Source: Natrinema thermotolerans DSM 11552
GTDB lineage: Archaea; Halobacteriota; Halobacteria; Halobacteriales; Natrialbaceae
Direction: 5' to 3'
Assembly: GCA_000337115.1 (NCBI GenBank)
Contig: AOIR01000053.1
Location: 67,489 to 131,488, forward strand
Length of the DNA: 64,000 bases
A program made the translations under genes and the position numbers. Below, one piece after another: positions 2,576-15,285 of this stretch (its first letter is position 1; every line of letters starts with the position of its first letter). The notes beneath the pieces were generated by a model. The model did no database searches. It was not told the origin of the DNA and was given only the letters and a program-made list of their open reading frames with translations.

Positions 2576-2604
2576 CGCGGCCGATCGTTGCGCTTGCGCG
2601 TCCG

Positions 2605-2613
2605 CTACTTATG
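2605..2613 (+). promoter_or_regulatory. TATA box of the aldehyde dehydrogenase
   Basis: CTACTTATG is centred about 30 bases before the ATG at 2639. It decides between that ATG and an in-frame start at 2588 that would lie upstream of the promoter. Confidence 0.55.
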
Positions 2614-2638
2614 CCCGCTCGAGGGCTATGTCGCTCGC

Positions 2639-4156
2639 ATGACGGACCTTCCACTGGCACCCGACGGCGGCTGGGAATCGCTCTATCTCGCGGGCGACTG
2701 GACCGACAGCGCGGGACGAAGTCCCGCGAGCAGTCGGACGCAGTCCGACGACGGCGGCGATCGCGACGCGATCACCGTCGAGAACCCGTACACGCGCGAA
2801 GCGATCGCGTCCGTCCCGGCGGGGACCGACGCCGATGTCGACCGGGCCTACGAGACCGCCGCGTCGGCACAGGAGACGTGGGCCCAGCAACCGCCACAGG
2901 CCCGTGCAGGGGTGATCAGCGCGGCTATCCAGTTCGTCGGGGATCACCGCGAGGAGATCGTCGAGCTACTGGCCCGCGAATCGGGGAGTACGCGGGTCAA
3001 ATCGGAGGCCGAAGTGGAGACTGCGAGGGGGATGATGCAACAGGCCGCCAGCTACCCGTTCCGGATGGACGGCCAGCACGCGGACTCGATCACGCCGGGC
3101 AAGGAAAACGTCGCCGAGCGAGTGCCGGTCGGCGTCGTCGGCGTCATCTCGCCGTGGAACTTCCCGCTGCATCTCTCGATGCGGGCGGTCGCGCCGGCGA
3201 TCGCGGCCGGGAACGCGGTCGTCCTCAAACCCGCCTCGAACACGCCGATCACGGGCGGGCTGTTGCTCGCGCGGATCTTCGAAGCCGCGGGCGTCCCCGA
3301 GGGGGTCCTCAGCGTCGTCCCCGGCCGCGGCTCCGAGATCGGCGACGCGGTCGCCGGCCACGACATCCCCCGGACTATCGCCTTCACCGGCTCGACCGAG
3401 ATCGGACAGGGGGTCGCCGCCACGGCGGCGCGCAACTGCGCCCTACCCGCCATGGAACTCGGCGGGAACAACGTCCACGTCGTCACCGACGACGCCGACC
3501 TCGAGCGGGCCGTCGACGGCGGCGTCTTCGGTTCCTTTCTGCACCAGGGCCAGATCTGCATCTCTATCAACCGCCACCTGGTCCACGAGGACGTCTACGA
3601 CGAGTACGTCGACGCGCTGGCCGACCGGGCCGCGTCGCTGCCGACCGGTGATCCGACCGACGACGACACCGTCATCGGTCCCATCATCGACGAGAGTCAG
3701 CGCGATCAGATCCTCGAGTACGTCGAGGAATCGGTCGACGCGGGTGCGACCCTCGAGACCGGCGGCGACCACGACGGACTCGTCGTCGAACCCACAGTCC
3801 TCTCCGACGCCGACAACGACATGGCCGCGGCCTGCAACGAACACTTCGGTCCCGTCGCGCCCGTGATCCCCTACGCGAGCGACGACGAGGCGATCGAACT
3901 GGCCAACGACACGATCCACGGTCTCTCGGGGTCGGTCCACAGCGAGACCATCGAACGGGCCCGCCGGATCGCGGACGGGATCGAGACGGGAATGATCCAC
4001 ATCAACGACCAACCAGTCAACGACGAGCCACACGTCCCCTTCGGCGGGATGAAGCAATCGGGCATGGGCCGGTACAACGGCGAGCAGATCCTCGAGGAAG
4101 TGACGACGACGAAGTGGATCTCGATCCAGCACGAGCCTCGCGAGTACCCGTTCTGA
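2639..4156 (+). CDS. NAD(P)-dependent aldehyde dehydrogenase
   Basis: Aldehyde dehydrogenase superfamily enzyme of 505 residues that oxidises an aldehyde to its acid. It has the cofactor loop FTGSTEIGQ (from about 249), the general base Glu273 in MELGGNN and the nucleophile Cys307 in HQGQICIS, all intact. The start at 2639 is set by the promoter at 2605. Residues about 24-40 (SAGRSPASSRTQSDD region) are a low-complexity insertion coded by two perfect hairpins (2710-2749), in a loop where relatives have a short turn. The substrate is unknown; the sequence is of the general benzaldehyde/vanillin or aliphatic type and differs from the proline-linked dehydrogenase at 7820. Confidence 0.93.
   Translation: MTDLPLAPDGGWESLYLAGDWTDSAGRSPASSRTQSDDGGDRDAITVENPYTREAIASVPAGTDADVDRAYETAASAQETWAQQPPQARAGVISAAIQFVGDHREEIVELLARESGSTRVKSEAEVETARGMMQQAASYPFRMDGQHADSITPGKENVAERVPVGVVGVISPWNFPLHLSMRAVAPAIAAGNAVVLKPASNTPITGGLLLARIFEAAGVPEGVLSVVPGRGSEIGDAVAGHDIPRTIAFTGSTEIGQGVAATAARNCALPAMELGGNNVHVVTDDADLERAVDGGVFGSFLHQGQICISINRHLVHEDVYDEYVDALADRAASLPTGDPTDDDTVIGPIIDESQRDQILEYVEESVDAGATLETGGDHDGLVVEPTVLSDADNDMAAACNEHFGPVAPVIPYASDDEAIELANDTIHGLSGSVHSETIERARRIADGIETGMIHINDQPVNDEPHVPFGGMKQSGMGRYNGEQILEEVTTTKWISIQHEPREYPF
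2710..2749. repeat. Two tandem hairpins with 3-nt loops inside a gene
   Basis: 2710-2717 pairs with 2721-2728 (8 bp, loop GAA) and 2733-2739 pairs with 2743-2749 (7 bp, loop GCA). They sit in the 5' part of the aldehyde dehydrogenase gene, keep the frame and encode a Ser/Arg-rich loop. The same architecture appears at 32496-32544 and 63018-63038. Confidence 0.75.
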
Positions 4157-4308
4157 GTGCCACTTGATCCACGGATCCACGGCGGTTCCGACCGTCTCGG
4201 TCCGTCGCTGTGTCCGATTCGATCGGGGTCCGCCCTCGCCGCTTCGTCTCGCTTCTCCCGGTTGGAAGCGTGGTCCTTATGACAATATAAATTAACCAAC
4301 TAGTAGGC

Positions 4309-5217
4309 ATGGAACGCCGAACCTACCTGGTCACCGCTGGCATCGGCACCTCGTCCCTCCTTGCGGGCTGTCTGAGCGACGGTCCGAGCGACGACGAATC
4401 CGACGGCGACGACGAACCGGAACCCGATGGCGACGAGTCCGAACCCGAAAGCGAACCGGACCACGAGCAGGTCATCGAGACCTACCTCGAGGCCGCTCAG
4501 GCCGAAGATCCCGACGCGATGGCCGCGGTCGTCCACAGCGCGAGCCCGTTACAGGGGATCCTCACCGATCCGGAGTGGGAATTCGAATCGAGCGGCTCCG
4601 CCGATCTCGACGCCCTCGAGACCGAGGTCGTGACGGCCGACGGCTCCGTCGCGGACGTCCGCGAACTGGAGGGTGCCGAGTTCTGGTTCGCGGAGTCCGA
4701 CCTCGAGGCCGAGATCGACGACGCGGAGATCGTGCTGGTCCGCGCCGAACTGGACGGCGAGGCGTCGACCGGTCAGACCGGCGTCTACGCGCTCGCGACC
4801 GAAGGCGACGAGTGGAAGATCTTCTGGATAGAGAGCGAGGACGACACGCCCGAAGACCCCGAGGAGGCGTTCGAGCCGGAGATCATCGACACCGACGACG
4901 ACGTCGTCGAGCGGATCGAGTGGGGCGTCGACGCGGTGAACGCCCCCGAGGGCTCCGCTGTCGACACCGGATACTACGCCCGTGTCCATCTCACCGACGA
5001 GCCCGGCCGCAAGGCCGATCTGATCCGCATCGAATCGACGATCGCCGACTCGAAGTTCGAGTTCTACGGTGAAGACAAGACCGAGCCGTCGACGTCGTGG
5101 GCGGGGACTTGGGCGAACGTTCGGCTCAACGCCGACGGCGATCAGATCGTCGTGACTGCCGTCCGCGGGGATACCGAGACGGTCGTCCATCGGGAACACT
5201 ACGAGCCGTCGGACTGA
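4309..5217 (+). CDS. Secreted Tat-type lipoprotein, unknown function
   Basis: A 302-residue exported protein. It begins ERRTYLVTAGIG with a twin arginine, a hydrophobic stretch and a lipobox ending LLAGC (Cys at about 21), so it is probably Tat-exported and lipid-anchored outside the cell. An Asp/Glu/Pro-rich linker follows (22-55). Residues 56-180 resemble a small beta-rich, NTF2/DUF4878-like fold (a guess from the LEAAQAEDPDAMAAVVH opening). Residues 195-300 form a second domain with alternating beta strands. AATATAAATT and TTATG boxes lie 20-30 bases upstream of the ATG. It stands alone between the aldehyde dehydrogenase and tRNA-Leu. Ligand unknown. Confidence 0.85.
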   Translation: MERRTYLVTAGIGTSSLLAGCLSDGPSDDESDGDDEPEPDGDESEPESEPDHEQVIETYLEAAQAEDPDAMAAVVHSASPLQGILTDPEWEFESSGSADLDALETEVVTADGSVADVRELEGAEFWFAESDLEAEIDDAEIVLVRAELDGEASTGQTGVYALATEGDEWKIFWIESEDDTPEDPEEAFEPEIIDTDDDVVERIEWGVDAVNAPEGSAVDTGYYARVHLTDEPGRKADLIRIESTIADSKFEFYGEDKTEPSTSWAGTWANVRLNADGDQIVVTAVRGDTETVVHREHYEPSD

Positions 5218-5288
5218 TCCCGTCGATCGGGATCGCGGATTTCGGCTCGAGGGCTGTCGTTGTGCTGTCGCGGATTGCTCGCAGCGAC

Positions 5289-5311
5289 ATGCGAGGGTTG
5301 GGATTTGAACC
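5289..5311 (-). repeat. Copy of the tRNA-Leu 3' end (att-like)
   Basis: These 23 bases are identical to 5407-5429, the 3' end of the tRNA-Leu gene (discriminator, acceptor strand, T-arm), and lie 118 bases downstream of it in the tRNA reading direction. A 3'-tRNA duplication is the usual footprint of a tyrosine-recombinase element. The 95 bases between the copies hold only a hairpin-rich stretch, with no integrase. Confidence 0.7.
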
Positions 5312-5407
5312 ACGGGAAGACGGTCGCTCACTCCGTTCGCGCTGCGACTTCCCTGATTCGAATCCCGCGTCTCGCAGACACGACTCTCACTGTCGTTCGA
5401 GTCGGTA

Positions 5408-5491
5408 TGCGAGGGTTGGGATTTGAACCCAAGGACTCCTACGAGAGCGGGTCTTAAGCCCACCGCCGTTGGCCTGCTTGGCTACCCTCGC
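5408..5491 (-). tRNA. tRNA-Leu (anticodon TAA)
   Basis: Class II tRNA of 84 nt on the minus strand. The acceptor stem GCGAGGG pairs with CCCTCGC, followed by discriminator A. The D-arm is GCC..GGC, the anticodon stem is GTGGG/CCCGC with loop CTTAAGA, and the T-arm is TTGGG TTCAAAT CCCAA. The anticodon is 5454-5456 read in reverse. A variable arm of about 14 nt is as expected for leucine. No CCA is encoded and no intron is seen. Confidence 0.95.
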
Positions 5492-5558
5492 ACAGAAGGC
5501 GTTCGATGGTTGTTCCGGGGTGGGGATGTGCGTTTCGGTGTGCGTTCGCGCCGTCGGC

Positions 5559-5900
5559 CTACCAGTCGACGCTCAACGTACCGTCACCGTGAGGGTCGGG
5601 CGCGATCTCCTCGTCGGTTCGGCGGTCGACGACGTGGATACAGCCGTCGTCTTTCTTGGCCGGACAGACCTCCGCGGCGCGGACGTTGTGATCGAGGTCG
5701 TCCTCGGCGATGAAGTACTCCTCGGGCTGGGCCATTCCGGAGGCGATCGACATCTCCCAGTTGTCGCTGACCTCGGCGCACTTGCCCGCACCGAAGCACT
5801 TGTTGGCCTCGAAGATGATCTTGTAGGGTTTCTCGTCGATCGGGGGTGCGTCGCCGGAACCGACGTCGCTGGCCTGCTGGATACCGTCGTCGTCGCTCAT
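5559..5900 (-). CDS. Single-cluster ferredoxin
   Basis: A 113-residue electron carrier. Cysteines occur as C-F-G-A-G-K-C and later VCPAKKDDGC, the spacing of [3Fe-4S]/[4Fe-4S] single-cluster ferredoxins that serve P450s and other monooxygenases (C-x5-C ... CP). It is unlike the plant-type 2Fe-2S ferredoxin usual in haloarchaea. The protein is acidic, with a 25-residue flexible N-terminus. The ATG at 5900 is preferred over upstream in-frame codons, which would add a basic, non-haloarchaeal-looking leader. It lies alone next to tRNA-Leu; no partner oxidase is adjacent, though the acyl-CoA dehydrogenases and R2lox elsewhere need electron carriers. Confidence 0.85.
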   Translation of the reverse strand: MSDDDGIQQASDVGSGDAPPIDEKPYKIIFEANKCFGAGKCAEVSDNWEMSIASGMAQPEEYFIAEDDLDHNVRAAEVCPAKKDDGCIHVVDRRTDEEIAPDPHGDGTLSVDW

Positions 5901-6564
5901 GTGTCCCCGTTCGAGCGAGCGGCCTTTCGCGTTACGGTTGGCGCGAGTGACGGTATCGATTCCACCCGCGGTGAACCAGCGACGCCACTGCTGGGTTCGA
6001 TTCGAGACCGGTTCGTCTGCTCGTCGTCGTGGCCGCTCTGTGGCGGGTGATTCGTCTCTCGGTATCGGGTGGCCGATCGTATCTCCCAGAAGTACCAATA
6101 CGGTCATGTTATTGCACAACAGACAATATTGTTTCTGAAGAACAATACAATATCGGGGCAGGATCGCTGTTGCTACAAAACCTGCTGAGTGCGTTCACAC
6201 TTTGGCCTAGTCGTGAAACGCATGGATACTGTGTCGAACCTCGTTTTGTTTCGGCAGTATTGCCCAGAAGATGTATTTATACAGTGAATCAGGAATTGAG
6301 GAACTCATATACTCGACAAGGCTTATCGAGTGTCGGTACGTCTGCCGTTTCAAAATAGTTTTGTGGTCTCTATTTCTTTGCCAGCTATTGTTCGATAAAG
6401 ATGCAATAGTGTATGCGGACCTCGGTATAGTTATCGGATAGCTATATTACCACATGAGAGGCTCCGTTTCCGTGACGTGGCCCCGCCGCATCGATCGGGA
6501 CGGAGCAGCTGACCCGGCGTTGAAACCCACAATCCCGATTACAAACATATGTGTGTAATGGGTG
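5901..6564. other. 664-bp gap with an AT-rich core
   Basis: No convincing gene. Bases 6100-6460 are far more AT-rich than the surroundings. They contain a perfect 10-bp palindrome (6123-6132), an overlapping 6-bp inverted repeat with 7-nt spacer (6128-6133 with 6141-6146) and an imperfect palindrome TAGTTATC g GATAGCTA (6428-6444). It lies downstream of the IclR gene and upstream of the ferredoxin, so it may hold distal control sites or be acquired DNA. Confidence 0.5.
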
Positions 6565-7341
6565 TCAGAACAGCGTGGACTCGAGCGATCCGATTTCGTC
6601 TCGAAGCAGTTGTGCCAACTCCTCGGCCGTCGACTCGTCGGTCGCCATGCGATAGGTCGGTCCGCCGACCGAGAACGCCCCGACGACCTCGCCGTTGGGG
6701 TCGGTTACGGCCGCCCCGATGGACCGATAGCCGTCGATCAACTCCTCGTCGTTGACCGCATATCCGCGACGGCGGATCGCCTCGAGTTCGTCGAACAGTT
6801 CGGCCTCGTCGGTGATGGTGTGGTCGGTCGTCGCCGGCAGCCCCCAGCGCTCGAGAATCTCGCCGACCCGGGATTCGGACATCGACGCCAGCAGGGCCTT
6901 TCCGGAGGCGCAGTTGTGCATGTAGAACCGGTTGCCCGCCCGGAACGGGCTGGATTCGGACAGACTCCGTCGGGACGACTCGCCGATCGCGTACTCGAGG
7001 GAGTACGCGCGGCCGTTCTCCTCGACGATGAAGTCGGCTTCGTGGCCGGTCGTTTCGGCGAGGGAATAGACGTGCCGGCGCGCCGTCGCGTACAGCGGGT
7101 TTCGTCCGCGTGCGTGTTCGCCGAACGCGAGGAACTGGAGACCGACGTGGAAGGTGTCGCCGTCACGGACGAGGAACCCCTCGTCGACCAGCGTGTGGAG
7201 GTGGTTGTGGACGGTGCTTTTCGCCAGCTCGAGGCGGTCGGCCAGTTCGCTCAGCGTGGCACCGTCGCTCTCGCGGACCGCGCGAACGAGTGCGAGCGAC
7301 GTTTGCGTCGTCTTGACCGGCCGAGGGCGATCGTCGGTCAT
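6565..7341 (-). CDS. IclR-family transcriptional regulator
   Basis: A 258-residue DNA-binding regulator. The N-terminal winged helix (about 10-70) has the recognition helix region LELAKSTVHNHLHTL. The C-terminal IclR effector domain (about 85-250) has the typical SASGKA-like stretch (NCASGKALLAS) and a GYAVNDEEL segment. The ATG at 7341 is chosen because TTATG lies about 28 bases upstream. IclR proteins respond to small carboxylates or aromatics and usually control neighbouring catabolic genes. Here the near neighbours are a ferredoxin and, across a 387-bp gap, the proline module, so the target is uncertain. Confidence 0.92.
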   Translation of the reverse strand: MTDDRPRPVKTTQTSLALVRAVRESDGATLSELADRLELAKSTVHNHLHTLVDEGFLVRDGDTFHVGLQFLAFGEHARGRNPLYATARRHVYSLAETTGHEADFIVEENGRAYSLEYAIGESSRRSLSESSPFRAGNRFYMHNCASGKALLASMSESRVGEILERWGLPATTDHTITDEAELFDELEAIRRRGYAVNDEELIDGYRSIGAAVTDPNGEVVGAFSVGGPTYRMATDESTAEELAQLLRDEIGSLESTLF

Positions 7342-7728
7342 CGTTCGAAGTCGTCGTGTCGTCCGTGCATAAGGGTTCGGAATGTGTGAACCGTGTTCTG
7401 GGAGGATCGTCGAATTCACGGTTTATTTCTTGATGATTTACGATGCCAAATCGGTATTTGGGTAGTACCCTATCCGTCTATATATGTGTCACAGTACCAC
7501 AGGCGATCGGTGGTGTGGCATGTCGGGCTCCGACTCCCGTCGGTGGCCGTCCGTTCGGAATGCGTGAACGGAAGACGGCGAACTCGATCGGCGCGGTCGA
7601 TTCCGGCCGTTATCTCCCTCGTCGGCTCGGATTCGGTGTTCCGGTGTTCGCACCTTCGGAACGTGCTGCCGTCGGCGACCGCGGGCGATCCGCACGACTG
7701 GTTCGGGCGGTGATCCGGTCGACCGGCG
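7342..7728. other. 387-bp intergenic region upstream of the IclR gene
   Basis: It contains the IclR promoter (minus-strand CCTTATG near 7368) and an AT-rich patch with a second strong TATA (TCTATATATG, 7478-7488) that has no evident gene behind it. No ORF of haloarchaeal character was found. Confidence 0.5.
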
Positions 7729-7827
7729 CTAATCGGCGCCGCAGTGGTTCGTCCACCCGCAGTGCTGACACCACTCCTCCGGTGTGTCTGTCAGTCGCCC
7801 ACAGAGCGGACAGTTCGTCTCAGTCAT
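7729..7827 (-). CDS. 32-residue zinc-ribbon micro-protein
   Basis: A very small ORF missed by length cut-offs. It has five cysteines at 6, 9, 20, 23 and 29. Two CxxC knuckles (CPLCG and CQHCG) are spaced as in a rubredoxin-like or CPxCG zinc ribbon, with Trp/His residues between them, so it should bind one zinc. Its ATG overlaps the last 8 bases of the upstream aldehyde dehydrogenase gene, so it is probably translationally coupled to it. Small CPxCG-type proteins are known in haloarchaea, often with regulatory phenotypes; this link to proline oxidation is inference. The composition is acidic and the overlap is clean, which argues against chance. Confidence 0.75.
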   Translation of the reverse strand: MTETNCPLCGRLTDTPEEWCQHCGWTNHCGAD

Positions 7828-9355
7828 CGTCGGTCGTAATGTCGGCCGACAGTCCCTGTGCCATCTCGATGTCTTTGGAGTTGTTCAGCGTCCAGGCGGT
7901 GCGCTCGGTGACGGCCTCGATCACTTCGCGACCGCTCGGGTAGCCGTTCCCGGACTTGTTGACGCCGCCAAAGGGCAGGTGAACCTCCGCGCCGATACAC
8001 GGCAGGTTCCCGTACGCGAGTCCGACCTCGGCGTTGTCGCGGTAGTAGTTGACCTCGCGGTAGTCCTCGGAGATGATCGCTCCCGCGAGCCCGTACTCGG
8101 TGTCGTTGTGGATCTCGACGCCGTCCTCGATGTCGCCCGAGTACGTCATGAGCGCGACGTGGGGGCCGAAGACCTCCTCTTGTGTACATCGGAGGTCGGC
8201 GTCCGGGTCGGCCTCGTAGACGAACGGGCCGATCCAGTGGCCGTCCTCGTGGCCGTCGGGCACTTCCGCGTCGGCCAGTTCGTCGCGGTCGACGAGGACG
8301 TTCACGTCTTCGCTTCGCGCGAGTTCGTTGTACTCGAGGACCTTCTCCTTGTGTTCGCCCTCGACGAGCGGCCCCATGAACGTGTCTTCGGCCAGCGGGT
8401 CGCCGACCGCGATGTTCTTGGCGATCTCGACGAAGCGCTCCTTGAACTCGTCGTAGACGTCCTCGTGGACGATCAGGCGCTCGGCGGAGACACAGCGCTG
8501 GCCGGTGGTCTTGAACGAACTCATGACCGCCGAGTGGACGGCCGTATCGAGGTCGGCCTCGTCGCTGATGACGACGGCGTTCTTGCCGCCCATCTCGCAG
8601 GCCGCGAGCTTGCCGGGCTGTTCGGCGACGGTTTGAGCGACCTCTTGACCGACCTCGGCCGAACCGGTAAAGAGGACGGTGTCGACGCGTGGGTCGTCGA
8701 CGATCGAGGCCCCGGCGTCGCCGAAGCCCTGTACCATGTTGAACACGCCGTCGGGGATACCGCTCTCCTCGAACATCTCGGCGATGATCTGGCCACACCA
8801 CGGGGTCTGCTCGGCGGGCTTCCAGACCACGGTGTTGCCCTCGACCAGCGAGACGGCCATGTGCCAGAACGGGATCGCGACGGGGAAGTTCCAGGGCGTG
8901 ATACAGCCGACGACGCCCCGGGGCTTGCGGCGCATGTACGCGTCCTTGCTCCCGATCTCGGAGGGGACGACGTCACCGTGTGGGTGGCGGGCGTTGCCCG
9001 CGGCCCACTCGACCATGTGTGCGGCTTCGACGACGTCGGCTTTCCCTTCGGAGATCTCCTTGCCACACTCCTTGGTGACGATCTCGCCGAGTTCGTCCGT
9101 CCGCTCGCGCAGTTCGTGGTAGATGTCCCAGAGGAACTCCGCGCGGTCGATGTGCGACAGGTCGCGCCACTCCTCCTGTGCCGCCTCCGCGGCCTCGAGG
9201 GCTCGATCGACGTCGGATTGCGTTCCGCGGTGGAAGGTGCGCAACGTCTCGCCAGTCGCCGGGTTCTCGCTTGCGAAGGTTTCGTCGCCTTCGCCGTCCG
9301 TCCATTCGCCGTCGATGTAGTGTCGGTCGGGTTGCTCTGTCGTCTGCTGGCTCAT
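7820..9355 (-). CDS. Aldehyde dehydrogenase, probably 1-pyrroline-5-carboxylate dehydrogenase
   Basis: A 511-residue NAD(P)-linked dehydrogenase with FTGSAEVGQ (about 229), Glu254 in CEMGGKN and the catalytic Cys288 in TTGQRCVS. The length and fold match monofunctional P5C or semialdehyde dehydrogenases. The proline dehydrogenase and proline symporter genes are divergently placed just beyond a regulator. I therefore infer the second step of proline breakdown, glutamate semialdehyde to glutamate. The ATG at 9355 follows a minus-strand TTATTCC box by about 30 bases; an in-frame upstream extension is basic and rejected. The gene runs directly into the micro zinc-ribbon gene. Confidence 0.88.
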   Translation of the reverse strand: MSQQTTEQPDRHYIDGEWTDGEGDETFASENPATGETLRTFHRGTQSDVDRALEAAEAAQEEWRDLSHIDRAEFLWDIYHELRERTDELGEIVTKECGKEISEGKADVVEAAHMVEWAAGNARHPHGDVVPSEIGSKDAYMRRKPRGVVGCITPWNFPVAIPFWHMAVSLVEGNTVVWKPAEQTPWCGQIIAEMFEESGIPDGVFNMVQGFGDAGASIVDDPRVDTVLFTGSAEVGQEVAQTVAEQPGKLAACEMGGKNAVVISDEADLDTAVHSAVMSSFKTTGQRCVSAERLIVHEDVYDEFKERFVEIAKNIAVGDPLAEDTFMGPLVEGEHKEKVLEYNELARSEDVNVLVDRDELADAEVPDGHEDGHWIGPFVYEADPDADLRCTQEEVFGPHVALMTYSGDIEDGVEIHNDTEYGLAGAIISEDYREVNYYRDNAEVGLAYGNLPCIGAEVHLPFGGVNKSGNGYPSGREVIEAVTERTAWTLNNSKDIEMAQGLSADITTDDD

Positions 9356-9569: not shown

Positions 9570-10298
9570 ATGAGCAGTACGAGTTCGACGACGACCACGA
9601 CAGGGGCAACCGACGGGACGCGACTCACGCTCGATATCTGGCATCCGGACTGCTGGGGCCTGCAGGCGACCGAGGCAGTCGACGCCGGCTTGCTCGTCCA
9701 CACCGTCCACCGAACCGTCGAGGAGACGGTCAAGGGTCACTTCACCGTCTACGCCGACACGACGGCACAACTCGACGAGTTCGTCGCGTTCGCGGCCGAG
9801 TCTCCGCTAACGCACTCGACGGTTGAACTCGGCCAGCGCCCCACGACGGCACCGAACCCGGGGAACGCGACGCGCGAACTGTTCGTCGAGTACGAGCCCG
9901 AACACAGTATCAGCGACACGCTCGTCTCGCATGGCTTCATCCACGACGCGTCGGTGCGCGTCGAGAGTGGCGTCGAACACTGGCCGGTCTTCGTCGCCGG
10001 CGGTCGCGACGAGATCCGGTGTCGACTCGAGGCCATCCGGGCCGAGACGGACGCGGAGATTTCGATCAGTCGGGTCGCCACGCCCGACGGCGGTCCGTCG
10101 GAGACCGCCGATCGGACGGATCTCCTTACGCCGCGCCAGCGTGAGGCGTTCGAACTCGCCTGCGAGCGGAACTACTACGCGTGGCCCCGCGAGATCAGCA
10201 CGCGCGAACTCGCGGACGAACTCGGCGTCTCGAAGACGACGCTGCTCGAGCATCTCCGGAAGGCCGAAGCGAAACTGCTCAACCCCGACGACGTCTGA
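9570..10298 (+). CDS. Bat-type HTH regulator of the proline module
   Basis: A 242-residue haloarchaeal regulator. Residues 15-175 form a sensor region of the bacterio-opsin-activator type with no known ligand motif. Residues about 185-240 are an HTH_10 domain beginning LTPRQREAFELACERNYY and containing ISTRELADELGVSKTTLLEH. This domain family is common and largely specific to haloarchaea. Its place between the divergent dehydrogenase and the proline dehydrogenase strongly suggests that it controls proline use. The N-terminus is Ser/Thr-rich and flexible. Confidence 0.92.
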   Translation: MSSTSSTTTTTGATDGTRLTLDIWHPDCWGLQATEAVDAGLLVHTVHRTVEETVKGHFTVYADTTAQLDEFVAFAAESPLTHSTVELGQRPTTAPNPGNATRELFVEYEPEHSISDTLVSHGFIHDASVRVESGVEHWPVFVAGGRDEIRCRLEAIRAETDAEISISRVATPDGGPSETADRTDLLTPRQREAFELACERNYYAWPREISTRELADELGVSKTTLLEHLRKAEAKLLNPDDV

Positions 10299-10357: not shown

Positions 10358-10381
10358 TGCCTGTCGTCCCAGCAGTCCGGT

Positions 10382-11221
10382 ATGATACCACCGATCGCGA
10401 GCCGGTTCGTCGCCGGAACGACTGCGTCAGGCGCTCTGGACCACGTTTCGGAGTGTAACGAAGCGGGGATGGGCGGCATCCTGAACCTCCTCGGCGAACA
10501 CTACGACGATCCCGAACCCGCCGCGGAGGACGCCGACGCGTACTGTCACCTCGTCTCCGAACTGGCCAGCCGTGGCCTGAACGGCAGCGTCTCGGTCAAA
10601 CCGTCCCAGATCGGTATCGACGTCGGACCGGACGTCTTCAGGGAAAACTTCGAACGAATCGTCGAGACGGCGGCGGCCGAGGACGTGTTCGTCTGGTGTG
10701 ACATGGAAGACCACACGACGACCGACACGACGCTCGACGCCGTCGAAGCGACGGCCCGGGACCATCCCCACGGCGTCGGCGTCGCGATTCAGGCGAACCT
10801 CACGCGGACGCGCGATGACCTCCGTCGCCTCGCTGACGTTCCCGCCGCCGTCCGGCTGGTGAAAGGCGCCTACGACGAACCGTCGTCGGTCGCCCTCGAC
10901 TCGAAATCGGCCGTCGACGACGCCTACGAGGACCACCTCGAGTTCCTGTTTCGCGAATTCGACCAGGGTGTCGCGGTCGGGAGCCACGACCCAGCAATGC
11001 TTCAGGTCGCGGTCGACCTCCACAAGGAGTACGGGACGCCGTTCGAGATCCAGATGCTAATGGGGGTCCGCGAGGACGCCCAGCGCGAACTCGCCGCGAA
11101 GGGGTACGAGGTCAATCAGTACGTCCCCTACGGCGACAAGTGGATGCAGTACTTCTACCGACGGATCCGCGAGCGCAAGGAGAACGCACTGTTTGCGCTC
11201 CGCGCCGTTGTCGGCGTCTGA
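10382..11221 (+). CDS. Proline dehydrogenase (FAD)
   Basis: A 279-residue monofunctional proline dehydrogenase, first enzyme of proline oxidation, passing electrons to the quinone pool and giving P5C. It has the TIM-barrel signature. The opening is FVAGTTASGALDHV, the strand GSVSVKPSQIG contributes a conserved Lys, RLVKGAYDEP follows, and the C-terminal substrate-binding YVPYGDKWMQYFYRRIRER carries the conserved Arg pair. The length matches archaeal/Gram-positive forms. It is followed by a small membrane protein and the symporter on the same strand, each with its own promoter. Confidence 0.93.
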   Translation: MIPPIASRFVAGTTASGALDHVSECNEAGMGGILNLLGEHYDDPEPAAEDADAYCHLVSELASRGLNGSVSVKPSQIGIDVGPDVFRENFERIVETAAAEDVFVWCDMEDHTTTDTTLDAVEATARDHPHGVGVAIQANLTRTRDDLRRLADVPAAVRLVKGAYDEPSSVALDSKSAVDDAYEDHLEFLFREFDQGVAVGSHDPAMLQVAVDLHKEYGTPFEIQMLMGVREDAQRELAAKGYEVNQYVPYGDKWMQYFYRRIRERKENALFALRAVVGV

Positions 11222-11358: not shown

Positions 11359-11505
11359 ATGCCAGAGAGTGGATCAGTCGAATTGATCTGGTTATTCGGA
11401 CCGTTCGTCCTGTACCTAGCGATGCTCGTCGTCTACTACGTCTGGGAAGGGAAGCGAGAGAAACGACTCCGCGAGCGCTACGAGGAGGCGAAACATGGCC
11501 AGTGA
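11359..11505 (+). CDS. 48-residue single-span membrane protein upstream of putP
   Basis: A short ORF with one hydrophobic helix (about 8-29, LIWLFGPFVLYLAMLVVYY) followed by a highly charged tail of Arg/Lys/Glu. It is the first gene of the symporter transcript (TATA at 11325, leaderless) and its last 11 bases overlap the putP start, so translation is coupled. Small membrane partners next to SSS-family transporters are known (DUF4212, DUF3311, DUF997 types), but this one is shorter and I do not recognise its family. It probably assembles with or stabilises the symporter. N-inside or N-outside topology cannot be settled by eye. Confidence 0.8.
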   Translation: MPESGSVELIWLFGPFVLYLAMLVVYYVWEGKREKRLRERYEEAKHGQ

Positions 11506-13183
11506 GGGGTTAGCCGGCTCGGCCGGGAGCTGGGTCCTCGGAACGTTCGCCGTCTACCTGCTCGTCCTCCTCGGTATCGGACTGTACTCCTCGCGTCTCA
11601 TGGATTCCGTCGACGACTACGTCATCGGCGGTCGGAGCGTCGGCCCGGTCGTCACCGGCTTCTCCGAACGCGCCTCCGAGATGAGCGGCTGGCTCACGCT
11701 CGGTGTCCCGAGCGACGCGTTCGGGACCGGCGTGATGGCCTTCTACAACGGTCTCGGGATGATCCCCGCCGACCTGTTCGCGTGGGCCGGCATCGCGAAA
11801 CGCCTCCGGAAGTACACCGAGATCGTGAAGGCAGTTACGTTACCGACCTTCTTCGAGACACGACTGCAGGACGACACCGGCTACGTCAAAGGCGTCTCCG
11901 CGTTCGTCCTGATGCTCTTCGAAGGCGGATACGTCGGCGCACAGATCGTCGCCGCCGGGACGTTGCTCGAGGTCCTCACCGGCGTCTCGTCGCTGGTCGG
12001 GATCCTCGTCGGCGGCGTCATCGTCGTCGGCTACACCATGCTCGGCGGCTACTTCGCGGTCGCGTGGTCCGACTATGTCCAGGGTGCGATCATTCTGGTC
12101 GCGTTCATCATCCTGCCGATCATCGCCTTTACCAACTACGGGCTCCCGTTCGGCGACCTCGCGTCCGTCGGGAGTTCGTACACGAGCGTCACGGCCGGCA
12201 TGACCGGTTGGGCCGCGATCTTCGGGATCATCAGCTACGCCGCCATCGGGCTCGGCATTCCCGGGAACCCGCACGTGATGGTCCGATTCATGGGGATCGA
12301 CGAAGTCGAGAACATTCGTCTCGCGGCGCTGGTCGCCCAACTGTTCATGTTCGTCGCCTACATCGGCGCCGGCTTCGTCGGGCTGTACGCGCTGGTCGTC
12401 TTCGGGCAGGGCGGCATCGAGGACCCGAACAACGTCATGCCGCTGCTCACGCTCGAGTTCTTCCCCGGTGCGATCGCGGGGATCATCCTGGCGGCCGCTC
12501 TCGCCGCGATGATGTCCAGTGCCGACTCGCAGCTGCTAGTCGCGACGAGTGCCATCGTCGAGGACGTCTATCACGGCTACGTCAACCCGGACGCGAGCCA
12601 GGAGCGGCTCGTTCGCTACTCCCAGTACGTCACGCTCGGACTCGGCGCAGCCAGCGTCGCGTTTGCGCTCCTCGCACAGAACACGCCGATCTACACGCTC
12701 GTCCTCGACTACGCGTGGGGCGGCCTCGGCGCGGCCATCGGACCGACGCTCATCGCGGCCGTGTGGTGGAAACGGGTCACCGCGACGGGCTCCGTCGCGA
12801 GCATGATCGTCGGGACCACGACGATGGTCATCTGGACGCAGCTGTCGACCATCCTCGAACTGCTCGGCCTCATGGGGGCCATCGAGGGGTCGCCGTTCCT
12901 CACGGGGCTGGTCGGCGTCTACGGGCTTTTCCCCGCGTTCATCCTCTCGACGGCGACACTCATCGTCGTCTCGCTGCTGACGACGCCGCCCGAGGGCGTC
13001 GACGATCACTTCGATTCCTTCAACAAACCGCTCTCGTCCCTCTCGAGCGCCGACGATCCGACCGGGACTCCCGACTACGTGACCGACGGCGGTCGCGACG
13101 TCGAACCAAAGGCCGTCACGGAAACCGACACCATTCGCGCACACGTGACCGCCAGCGAGTACTGGGACGAGGGTGACGAGTAA
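11495..13183 (+). CDS. putP: Sodium/solute symporter, PutP-like (proline)
   Basis: A 562-residue member of the sodium:solute symporter (SSS) family. It has about 12-13 membrane helices (residues 15-490) and an acidic cytoplasmic tail (495-562). Family marks include YVIGGRSVGPVVTGFSERASEMSGWL near residue 45-70 and a run AAALAAMMSSADSQLLVATSAI near 335, which holds the sodium-site helix. The resemblance and neighbours point to Na+-coupled proline uptake. It follows the small membrane protein with an 11-base overlap and abuts the next gene (stop codon immediately followed by ATG), so the three form an operon. Confidence 0.93.
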   Translation: MASEGLAGSAGSWVLGTFAVYLLVLLGIGLYSSRLMDSVDDYVIGGRSVGPVVTGFSERASEMSGWLTLGVPSDAFGTGVMAFYNGLGMIPADLFAWAGIAKRLRKYTEIVKAVTLPTFFETRLQDDTGYVKGVSAFVLMLFEGGYVGAQIVAAGTLLEVLTGVSSLVGILVGGVIVVGYTMLGGYFAVAWSDYVQGAIILVAFIILPIIAFTNYGLPFGDLASVGSSYTSVTAGMTGWAAIFGIISYAAIGLGIPGNPHVMVRFMGIDEVENIRLAALVAQLFMFVAYIGAGFVGLYALVVFGQGGIEDPNNVMPLLTLEFFPGAIAGIILAAALAAMMSSADSQLLVATSAIVEDVYHGYVNPDASQERLVRYSQYVTLGLGAASVAFALLAQNTPIYTLVLDYAWGGLGAAIGPTLIAAVWWKRVTATGSVASMIVGTTTMVIWTQLSTILELLGLMGAIEGSPFLTGLVGVYGLFPAFILSTATLIVVSLLTTPPEGVDDHFDSFNKPLSSLSSADDPTGTPDYVTDGGRDVEPKAVTETDTIRAHVTASEYWDEGDE

Positions 13184-14337: not shown

Positions 14338-15285
14338 TTACGCCGGAACGTCTGCTGCCGGCGTCGGCAGATCGTACGTGACGCCGGTCAGTTCGCTCGA
14401 GACGCGCCAGAGCCGTCGGGCGGTGTCTTCGTCGTAGGAGCGGTCCGAGGAGGCCTGGCGTTCGGGCGTACCGCGCATGTTCATCAGGCCGCCAGGGCCG
14501 TAGTAGGCTCCGCCCTCGGCTTCGGGCGCGGTGGCGGCATACAGGGTCGGGAGCGCGCCCATCGCGGCCGATTGGGCTGCGACGGTGTTTAGTACCCTCA
14601 TCGCGGCTTTGCGGAGTCGGCTGCCGCTCTGCTCGGGGCCGCGCAGCTGTAACTGGGTGTTCGCGTAGCCGGGATGGACCGCCATGCTCGCCGCGTTCGC
14701 GTCGGCGGTGAGCAGCCGGCGCTCGAGTTCGTAGGCGAACAGGACGTTCGCCAACTTCGACTGGGCGTAGGCGTCCCACTTGTCGTAGCCGTCCTCGTGC
14801 TGGAGGTCGTCGAAGTCGATCTTGCCGTTCTCGTGGACGCCGCTCGAGACGGTGACGACCCGCGAGTCGGGCTCGGTCTCGAGTCCGAGGTTCTCGAGCA
14901 AGAGTCCGGTCAGCGCGAAGTGGCCGAGGTGGTTGACGCCGAACTGGGTCTCGAAGCCGTCGTCGGTCTCCGAGCGGGGGATCGCCATGACTCCGGCGTT
15001 GTTGATGAGGACATCGATCGACTCCTCGAGTCGGGCCGCGAAGTCGCGAACGGACGCGAGATCGCCCAGATCACAGGCCTCGACGCGGAGGTCGGCACCG
15101 GGGATGTCCTCGCGAATCCCGTCGGCCGCGTCCGCGCCGCGCTCGGTGCTGCGACAGGCCATGATCACCGTCGCGCCGTTGCGAGCGAGTTCGCGCGTGG
15201 CCTCGAGACCGATGCCGCTGTTCGCGCCGGTGATAACGATCGTCCGTCCGCTTTGGTCGGGGATGTCGTCGGCTGTCCAGCCCAT
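14338..15285 (-). CDS. Short-chain dehydrogenase, retinol-DH/protochlorophyllide-reductase type
   Basis: A 315-residue NADP-type oxidoreductase of the longer SDR group. It has cofactor loop TGANSGIG (about 21-28), NNAGVMAIP (about 95-103), a Ser in VTVSSGVHENG and the catalytic pair YAQSKLANV (about 172). The ATG at 15285 begins MGWTADDIPDQSGRTIVITG, typical for the group; upstream in-frame sequence is basic and not coding-like. It lies 70 bases after the sensor kinase on the same strand and could be read through with it. Substrate unknown, likely a lipophilic alcohol or ketone. Confidence 0.9.
   Translation of the reverse strand: MGWTADDIPDQSGRTIVITGANSGIGLEATRELARNGATVIMACRSTERGADAADGIREDIPGADLRVEACDLGDLASVRDFAARLEESIDVLINNAGVMAIPRSETDDGFETQFGVNHLGHFALTGLLLENLGLETEPDSRVVTVSSGVHENGKIDFDDLQHEDGYDKWDAYAQSKLANVLFAYELERRLLTADANAASMAVHPGYANTQLQLRGPEQSGSRLRKAAMRVLNTVAAQSAAMGALPTLYAATAPEAEGGAYYGPGGLMNMRGTPERQASSDRSYDEDTARRLWRVSSELTGVTYDLPTPAADVPA

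Follow-up and report, generated by a model that had tools for sequence, protein, structure and literature searches.

A gene of 32 codons for a CPxCG-type micro-protein was located on the minus strand of a proline catabolism module in Natrinema thermotolerans DSM 11552, directly behind an aldehyde dehydrogenase gene. Comparison of its orthologues establishes, short of a peptide, that the reading frame is a genuine protein-coding gene and not a chance ORF. The product is tentatively read as a metal-binding protein, optional to the module, that serves it as an accessory or regulator; it may be made by coupled translation and may act on or beside the dehydrogenase. The two central features of the window (the whole stretch of DNA analysed, 64,000 nucleotides) are as follows.

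7729..7827, minus strand: gene of the 32-residue CPxCG micro-protein, including the TAG stop (ORF reading, orthologues, coding test).
7820..7827, minus strand: 8-base start/stop overlap ATGACTGA between the micro-gene and the dehydrogenase gene (conserved in 17/17 genomes).

Read from 7827 to 7729, the ORF specifies MTETNCPLCGRLTDTPEEWCQHCGWTNHCGAD and closes with TAG. The CPLCG motif occupies residues 6-10 and the CQHCG motif residues 20-24; C9 and C20 are separated by 10 residues, and C29 is a fifth cysteine. The 3' end of the dehydrogenase gene reads ...GAC GAT GAC TGA, the TGA occupying 7822-7820; within it, at 7827, the micro-ORF opens as ATG ACT GA. The first-pass annotation had described an ORF with these two knuckles and an ATG overlapping the dehydrogenase stop by 8 bases; both descriptions proved correct, and the strand, which it had left unstated, is minus. 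The micro-gene is present as a single copy in the source genome. An AlphaFold2 model of the protein was poor (mean pLDDT of 59.6).

CPxCG-related zinc fingers are defined by a pair of Cys/His patterns separated by 7-40 residues, of which one or both are CPxCG-like (PMC2253796). The CPLCG and CQHCG motifs, with their spacing of 10 residues, conform to this definition and are kept in 17 genomes, in each of which the protein is 32 residues long and thus falls among the stand-alone single-domain proteins of fewer than 70 residues. By its sequence the micro-protein is a further member of the known haloarchaeal CPxCG zinc-finger micro-proteins, as had been proposed. In Haloferax volcanii, the C(P)XCG zinc-finger micro-proteins no longer than 70 aa number 49, of which five belong to the 30-40 aa class and none is shorter than 30 aa; five of the 14 Haloferax CPxCG-type proteins tested held no zinc, so zinc binding by the micro-protein cannot be assumed (PMC11241148). 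A single domain that binds one metal ion through C6, C9, C20, and C23 is the probable arrangement, with C29 and the C-terminal GAD as further conserved features. No Pfam or NCBIfam family was matched at cut-off; the best Pfam match was DZR (17.3 bits against a cut-off of 27.3) and the best NCBIfam match was HVO_0416 (16.6 against 80).

Orthologues of the micro-gene were obtained as full-length matches in a profile search of 125 genomes of the family. They occur in 17 of these genomes from four genera, which include Natrinema, Haloterrigena, and Halostagnicola; Natrinema mahii, N. ejinorense, N. versiforme, Haloterrigena salina, and a Halostagnicola sp. are among the carriers. No full-length match was detected outside the family in 392 genomes of the order, where the weak additional matches were mostly parts of larger frames. 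A match in Dysgonomonas looks like a chance Cys-pattern match.

All 17 orthologues have exactly 32 codons without gaps and end in TAG. Residues C6, C9, G10, W19, C20, C23, G24, and C29 and the C-terminal GAD (giving a CGAD tail) are invariant, and the first Pro of the CPxCG motif is replaced by Gly in one sequence. The pN/pS ratio is 0.42 in the frame of the micro-gene and 0.59-1.93 in the five other frames, and a value as low as 0.42 was reached in none of 300 column shuffles. Codon position 3 is the most variable in the alignment; immediately past the stop, identity drops and gaps begin. The GAT codon that creates the ATG is retained in 17/17, though GAT is rare in the dehydrogenase gene (3 of 44 Asp codons, the other 41 being GAC). 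Loss of the Cys pattern or of the frame in relatives had been named in advance as the outcome that would argue against the gene, and neither has been lost. The in-frame constraint, the 17 orthologues of fixed length, and the invariant cysteines together make the gene real. In the public records of two relatives, whose gene table is known to be incomplete, the neighbors are annotated and the micro-gene is absent, in agreement with the expectation that it would be missed by annotation.

The remaining genes of the module and the associated sites are listed below.

6565..7341, minus strand: IclR-family regulator downstream of the micro-gene (Pfam IclR_C and HTH_IclR; syntenic in all 17 loci).
7374-7391, 7552-7569, and 7646-7663: three operator-like sites GTTCACACATTCCGAACG in the interval between the micro-gene and the IclR gene (3 matches against 0.03 expected in the window).
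7820..9355, minus strand: aldehyde dehydrogenase of 511 residues, delta-1-pyrroline-5-carboxylate dehydrogenase (P5CDH) by context (Pfam Aldedh, 1.6e-143).
9570..10298, plus strand: HTH-10 (Bat-type) regulator, divergent from P5CDH (Pfam HTH_10, 1.1e-18).
10367..11221, plus strand: proline dehydrogenase (Pfam Pro_dh, 4.2e-30; NCBIfam ProDh_Thermus match below cut-off).
11359..11505, plus strand: 48-residue hydrophobic protein with an 11-base overlap with the symporter start (syntenic in relatives; no Pfam match).
11495..13183, plus strand: sodium/proline symporter (Pfam SSF, 1.2e-64; so named in relatives).

From left to right the module thus consists of the IclR gene, the micro-gene, and the dehydrogenase gene on the minus strand, then the divergent HTH-10 gene and the genes for proline dehydrogenase, the 48-residue protein, and the SSF symporter. 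The Pro_dh, SSF, and HTH_10 matches confirm that this is a proline catabolism module, as first annotated. The dehydrogenase reaches no NCBIfam equivalog cut-off and was assigned as P5CDH by context. This context is good because its paralogues sit with proline dehydrogenase or with arginase and ornithine aminotransferase, and both gene sets make P5C. The 48-residue protein is perhaps a symporter accessory protein. The micro-gene is separated from the IclR gene by about 390 bases, and this distance, together with the GTTCACACATTCCGAACG sites before the IclR gene, groups the micro-gene with P5CDH and not with IclR. Sites of this type are probably IclR operators and recur at the loci of relatives, including modules without the micro-gene. 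The module is plasmid-borne in the public records of two relatives. A region of low GC content at 6050-6560 (0.56 against about 0.65 around it) is without a clear gene and lies between a ferredoxin-like gene and the IclR gene. The interval 2588-5900, near the module, contains the ferredoxin-like gene together with genes for a putative lipoprotein and another aldehyde dehydrogenase; these are kept at some of the relatives' loci.

The linkage between the micro-gene and P5CDH was examined across the family. In answer to the question originally raised, the micro-gene always follows the dehydrogenase (17/17 genomes), each time directly behind it and with the identical ATGACTGA overlap; the converse does not hold. 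One to three copies of P5CDH occur in nearly every genome of the family. In a tree of 57 P5CDH sequences, the copies that bear the micro-gene form one clade (100/99) with four that do not, and this clade contains the proline module only. The four sister modules (loci L102, L103, L104, and L107) encode P5CDH enzymes that are 90-92% identical and retain the genes for IclR, HTH-10, proline dehydrogenase, the 48-residue protein, and the symporter. No Cys-pair ORF was found in their P5CDH-IclR intervals of about 520-545 bases, and their P5CDH genes end in GACGAC, compared with GATGAC where the micro-gene is present; the Asp codon that supplies the ATG is GAC in all four.

Since near-identical P5CDH enzymes occur in four sister modules that lack it, the micro-gene is an optional part of the module and its product is not needed by the enzyme. 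An essential assembly factor for P5CDH is rejected on the same grounds, and the earlier suggestion of an assembly factor does not stand in that form; the zinc- or redox-dependent regulator suggested alongside it may still apply. Only a single P5CDH residue, S198, separates the micro-bearing from the micro-lacking sets, and the alignment thus gives no sign of a co-evolving P5CDH interface. The P5CDH tree fits either one gain or a few losses of the micro-gene.

A second CPxCG micro-protein was found near a P5CDH paralogue. This protein of 39 residues, MPVTTQRRCPACGTVIDTHEPEPRCGNCYWSNGTKQPSD, is encoded in the source genome on contig C21 at 14578-14694 (locus L090) and is present in 11 of the 125 family genomes, in every case on the same strand as and downstream of a P5CDH gene. 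The order in ten of the 11 is P5CDH, IclR, 39-residue micro-gene, arginase, and aminotransferase; in the other (genome G116) the micro-gene lies about 190-225 bases directly behind P5CDH. The P5CDH paralogue sits with arginase, a class-III aminotransferase, and an ArcD antiporter and so belongs to an arginine-catabolic module. In genome G071 P5CDH and arginase are broken and the 39-residue micro-gene is open. Among the decaying arginine modules (L193 and L092), P5CDH and arginase are broken in one and IclR and the aminotransferase in the other, and the micro-gene is open in both. That CPxCG micro-proteins are paired with P5CDH in two separate cases is suggestive and is not proof, because a chance second pairing would be expected with a probability of about several percent (our estimate, from about 50 such genes per genome and about ten P5CDH clades).

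The -8 ATGNNTGA overlap is the commonest termination-reinitiation arrangement in prokaryotes after -4 and -1, and coupling has been demonstrated experimentally for other gene pairs in Haloferax (PMC10666635). In Haloferax volcanii, 45.2% of the gene pairs spaced at -8 to +10 nt encode subunits of a complex, compared with 5.6% of distant pairs (PMC10666635). The conserved overlap suggests that ribosomes which terminate on the P5CDH cistron would reinitiate at the micro-gene (termination-reinitiation), so that its product would be made in step with P5CDH. The same overlap, with the enrichment in Haloferax, makes P5CDH the best single guess for a partner, on or beside which the micro-protein might act; it could, for example, adjust how active or stable the enzyme is in response to zinc or redox state. 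An accessory or regulator that binds loosely is preferred over a structural subunit or a folding requirement because the gene is optional and P5CDH residues that track its presence are nearly absent. The accessory reading, which we hold with less than even confidence, is favored by the five invariant cysteines, the in-frame constraint, the fixed overlap, the grouping with P5CDH, and the second P5CDH/CPxCG pairing; against it stand the four sister modules without the gene, the single tracking P5CDH residue, the poor structure model, and the position of the 39-residue protein mostly behind IclR. It is a rather speculative extension that the haloarchaeal P5CDHs of proline and arginine catabolism acquired, at least twice, dedicated CPxCG micro-proteins as small metal-dependent subunits or regulators, one of them held in fixed ratio by coupling, and that GAD-tailed ribbons form a wider class of catabolic-module appendages.

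The main rival to the accessory reading is a transcription regulator that adjusts the adjacent put genes in the manner of Brz, by itself or in concert with one of the HTH-10 and IclR proteins. Brz of Halobacterium salinarum is a CPxCG protein of 60 residues that is needed for the mRNA of the adjacent bop gene and requires its Cys and His residues; no other protein of this kind provides an experimental precedent for such an effect (PMC2253796). The proline module, too, contains an HTH-10 regulator of the Bat type. Brz has its own promoter, however, whereas the micro-gene is probably coupled to an enzyme gene, and a protein of 32 residues has few to spare for reading DNA once the knuckles are counted. 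Moreover, the GTTCACACATTCCGAACG sites lie at the IclR gene and occur also in modules that lack the micro-gene. We consider such a regulator unlikely, though it deserves serious attention.

A general metal-buffering or stress micro-protein that is co-expressed with the proline module by happenstance was also considered. Deletion mutants of CPxCG genes in Haloferax have varied stress, biofilm, and swarming phenotypes that are not module-specific (PMC6562870), and GAD-tailed relatives occupy many contexts. A protein of this kind is improbable here, given that the micro-gene is tied to one module and one overlap in 17/17 genomes, with no free-standing orthologue away from the module among the 125 family genomes.

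Spurious ORFs are abundant in haloarchaeal DNA, and the possibilities that the ORF arose by chance in GC-rich sequence or marks an RNA element, with no functional protein in either case, were weighed in turn. The chance ORF is rejected by the coding test (pN/pS of 0.42, with none of the shuffles as low) and by the fixed length and cysteines. A hairpin with a 6-bp stem, CGGCGC CGATTA GCGCCG, spans 7718-7735 on the minus strand, straddles the TAG stop, and is fully paired in 11/17 sequences. This region folds no better than shuffles (z of -0.20), and GAD is retained in other micro-proteins with different codons and stops, so the hairpin is rejected as the cause of the conserved tail; overall, we regard a gene without a functional protein as very improbable.

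An amino-group carrier of the LysW/ArgW type or a rubredoxin-like electron carrier, which might be suspected from the Cys knuckles, the adjacent glutamate-semialdehyde chemistry, and the use of ArgW in haloarchaea, is scarcely credible and was rejected because the protein ends in an invariant CGAD and not in the EDWGE with terminal Glu of LysW/ArgW (PMC3402447), the module has no ligase gene, Pfam and NCBIfam scans up to E = 1 matched no rubredoxin or rubrerythrin-like family, and the LysW model is absent from the NCBIfam matches.

Most haloarchaeal CPxCG micro-proteins have phenotypes and no known partner. The arrangement of the micro-gene points to P5CDH as a candidate partner and to proline as a growth condition, and the four sister modules without the gene provide natural controls, so the role of such proteins becomes directly testable. 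The micro-gene is also an example of a conserved, probably coupled gene that, at 32 codons, is lost by standard annotation.

The micro-protein resembles Brz as a small CPxCG protein encoded next to the genes it possibly serves and close to a Bat-type regulator. It differs in having 32 residues and a C4 arrangement with a fifth Cys, where Brz has 60 residues and a C3H finger (CPxCG plus CxxxH); Brz is transcribed from its own start site and has been shown to act on mRNA. With the Haloferax C(P)XCG micro-proteins, several of which bind one zinc, it shares a single domain of fewer than 70 residues with two CPxCG-type Cys pairs; it differs in its length at the short end of the range, its probable coupling to an enzyme gene, and the restriction of its orthologues to one module. 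The 32- and 39-residue proteins share a CPxCG...CxxC.W pattern near a P5CDH paralogue, with a profile comparison at E 9.8e-6 that partly reflects just the shared cysteines. The 39-residue protein has no GAD tail, and its gene lacks the overlap.

The ending CxxCG-[WYF]-x4-GAD-stop, which the micro-protein carries, was found at 41 places among the matches listed, in 28 of 61 genomes, and a reversed control pattern was found at none. Translated, nearly all of these matches give small proteins that have a Cys pair further upstream, such as MAISKHSLESEYHCPECAGSLSAQYESLTCDDCGYTPRHGAD; no Pfam or NCBIfam model captures this group at cut-off. With such matches in other small Cys-pair proteins and none for the control, the GAD tail is a signature at the protein level that is shared by a wider haloarchaeal set of small ribbons. 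Their contexts are varied, and some (L169, L170, and L174, from sequence starts only) appear to lie in catabolic clusters, for sugar acids or the like, that also contain IclR or aldehyde dehydrogenase genes. The micro-protein and ribbons such as MAISKHSLESEYHCPECAGSLSAQYESLTCDDCGYTPRHGAD have the same ending with identical spacing. The residue before GAD is mostly His in the ribbons (also Gln, Ala, and Ser) and always Cys in the micro-protein, and the first half of the protein and the genomic contexts differ.
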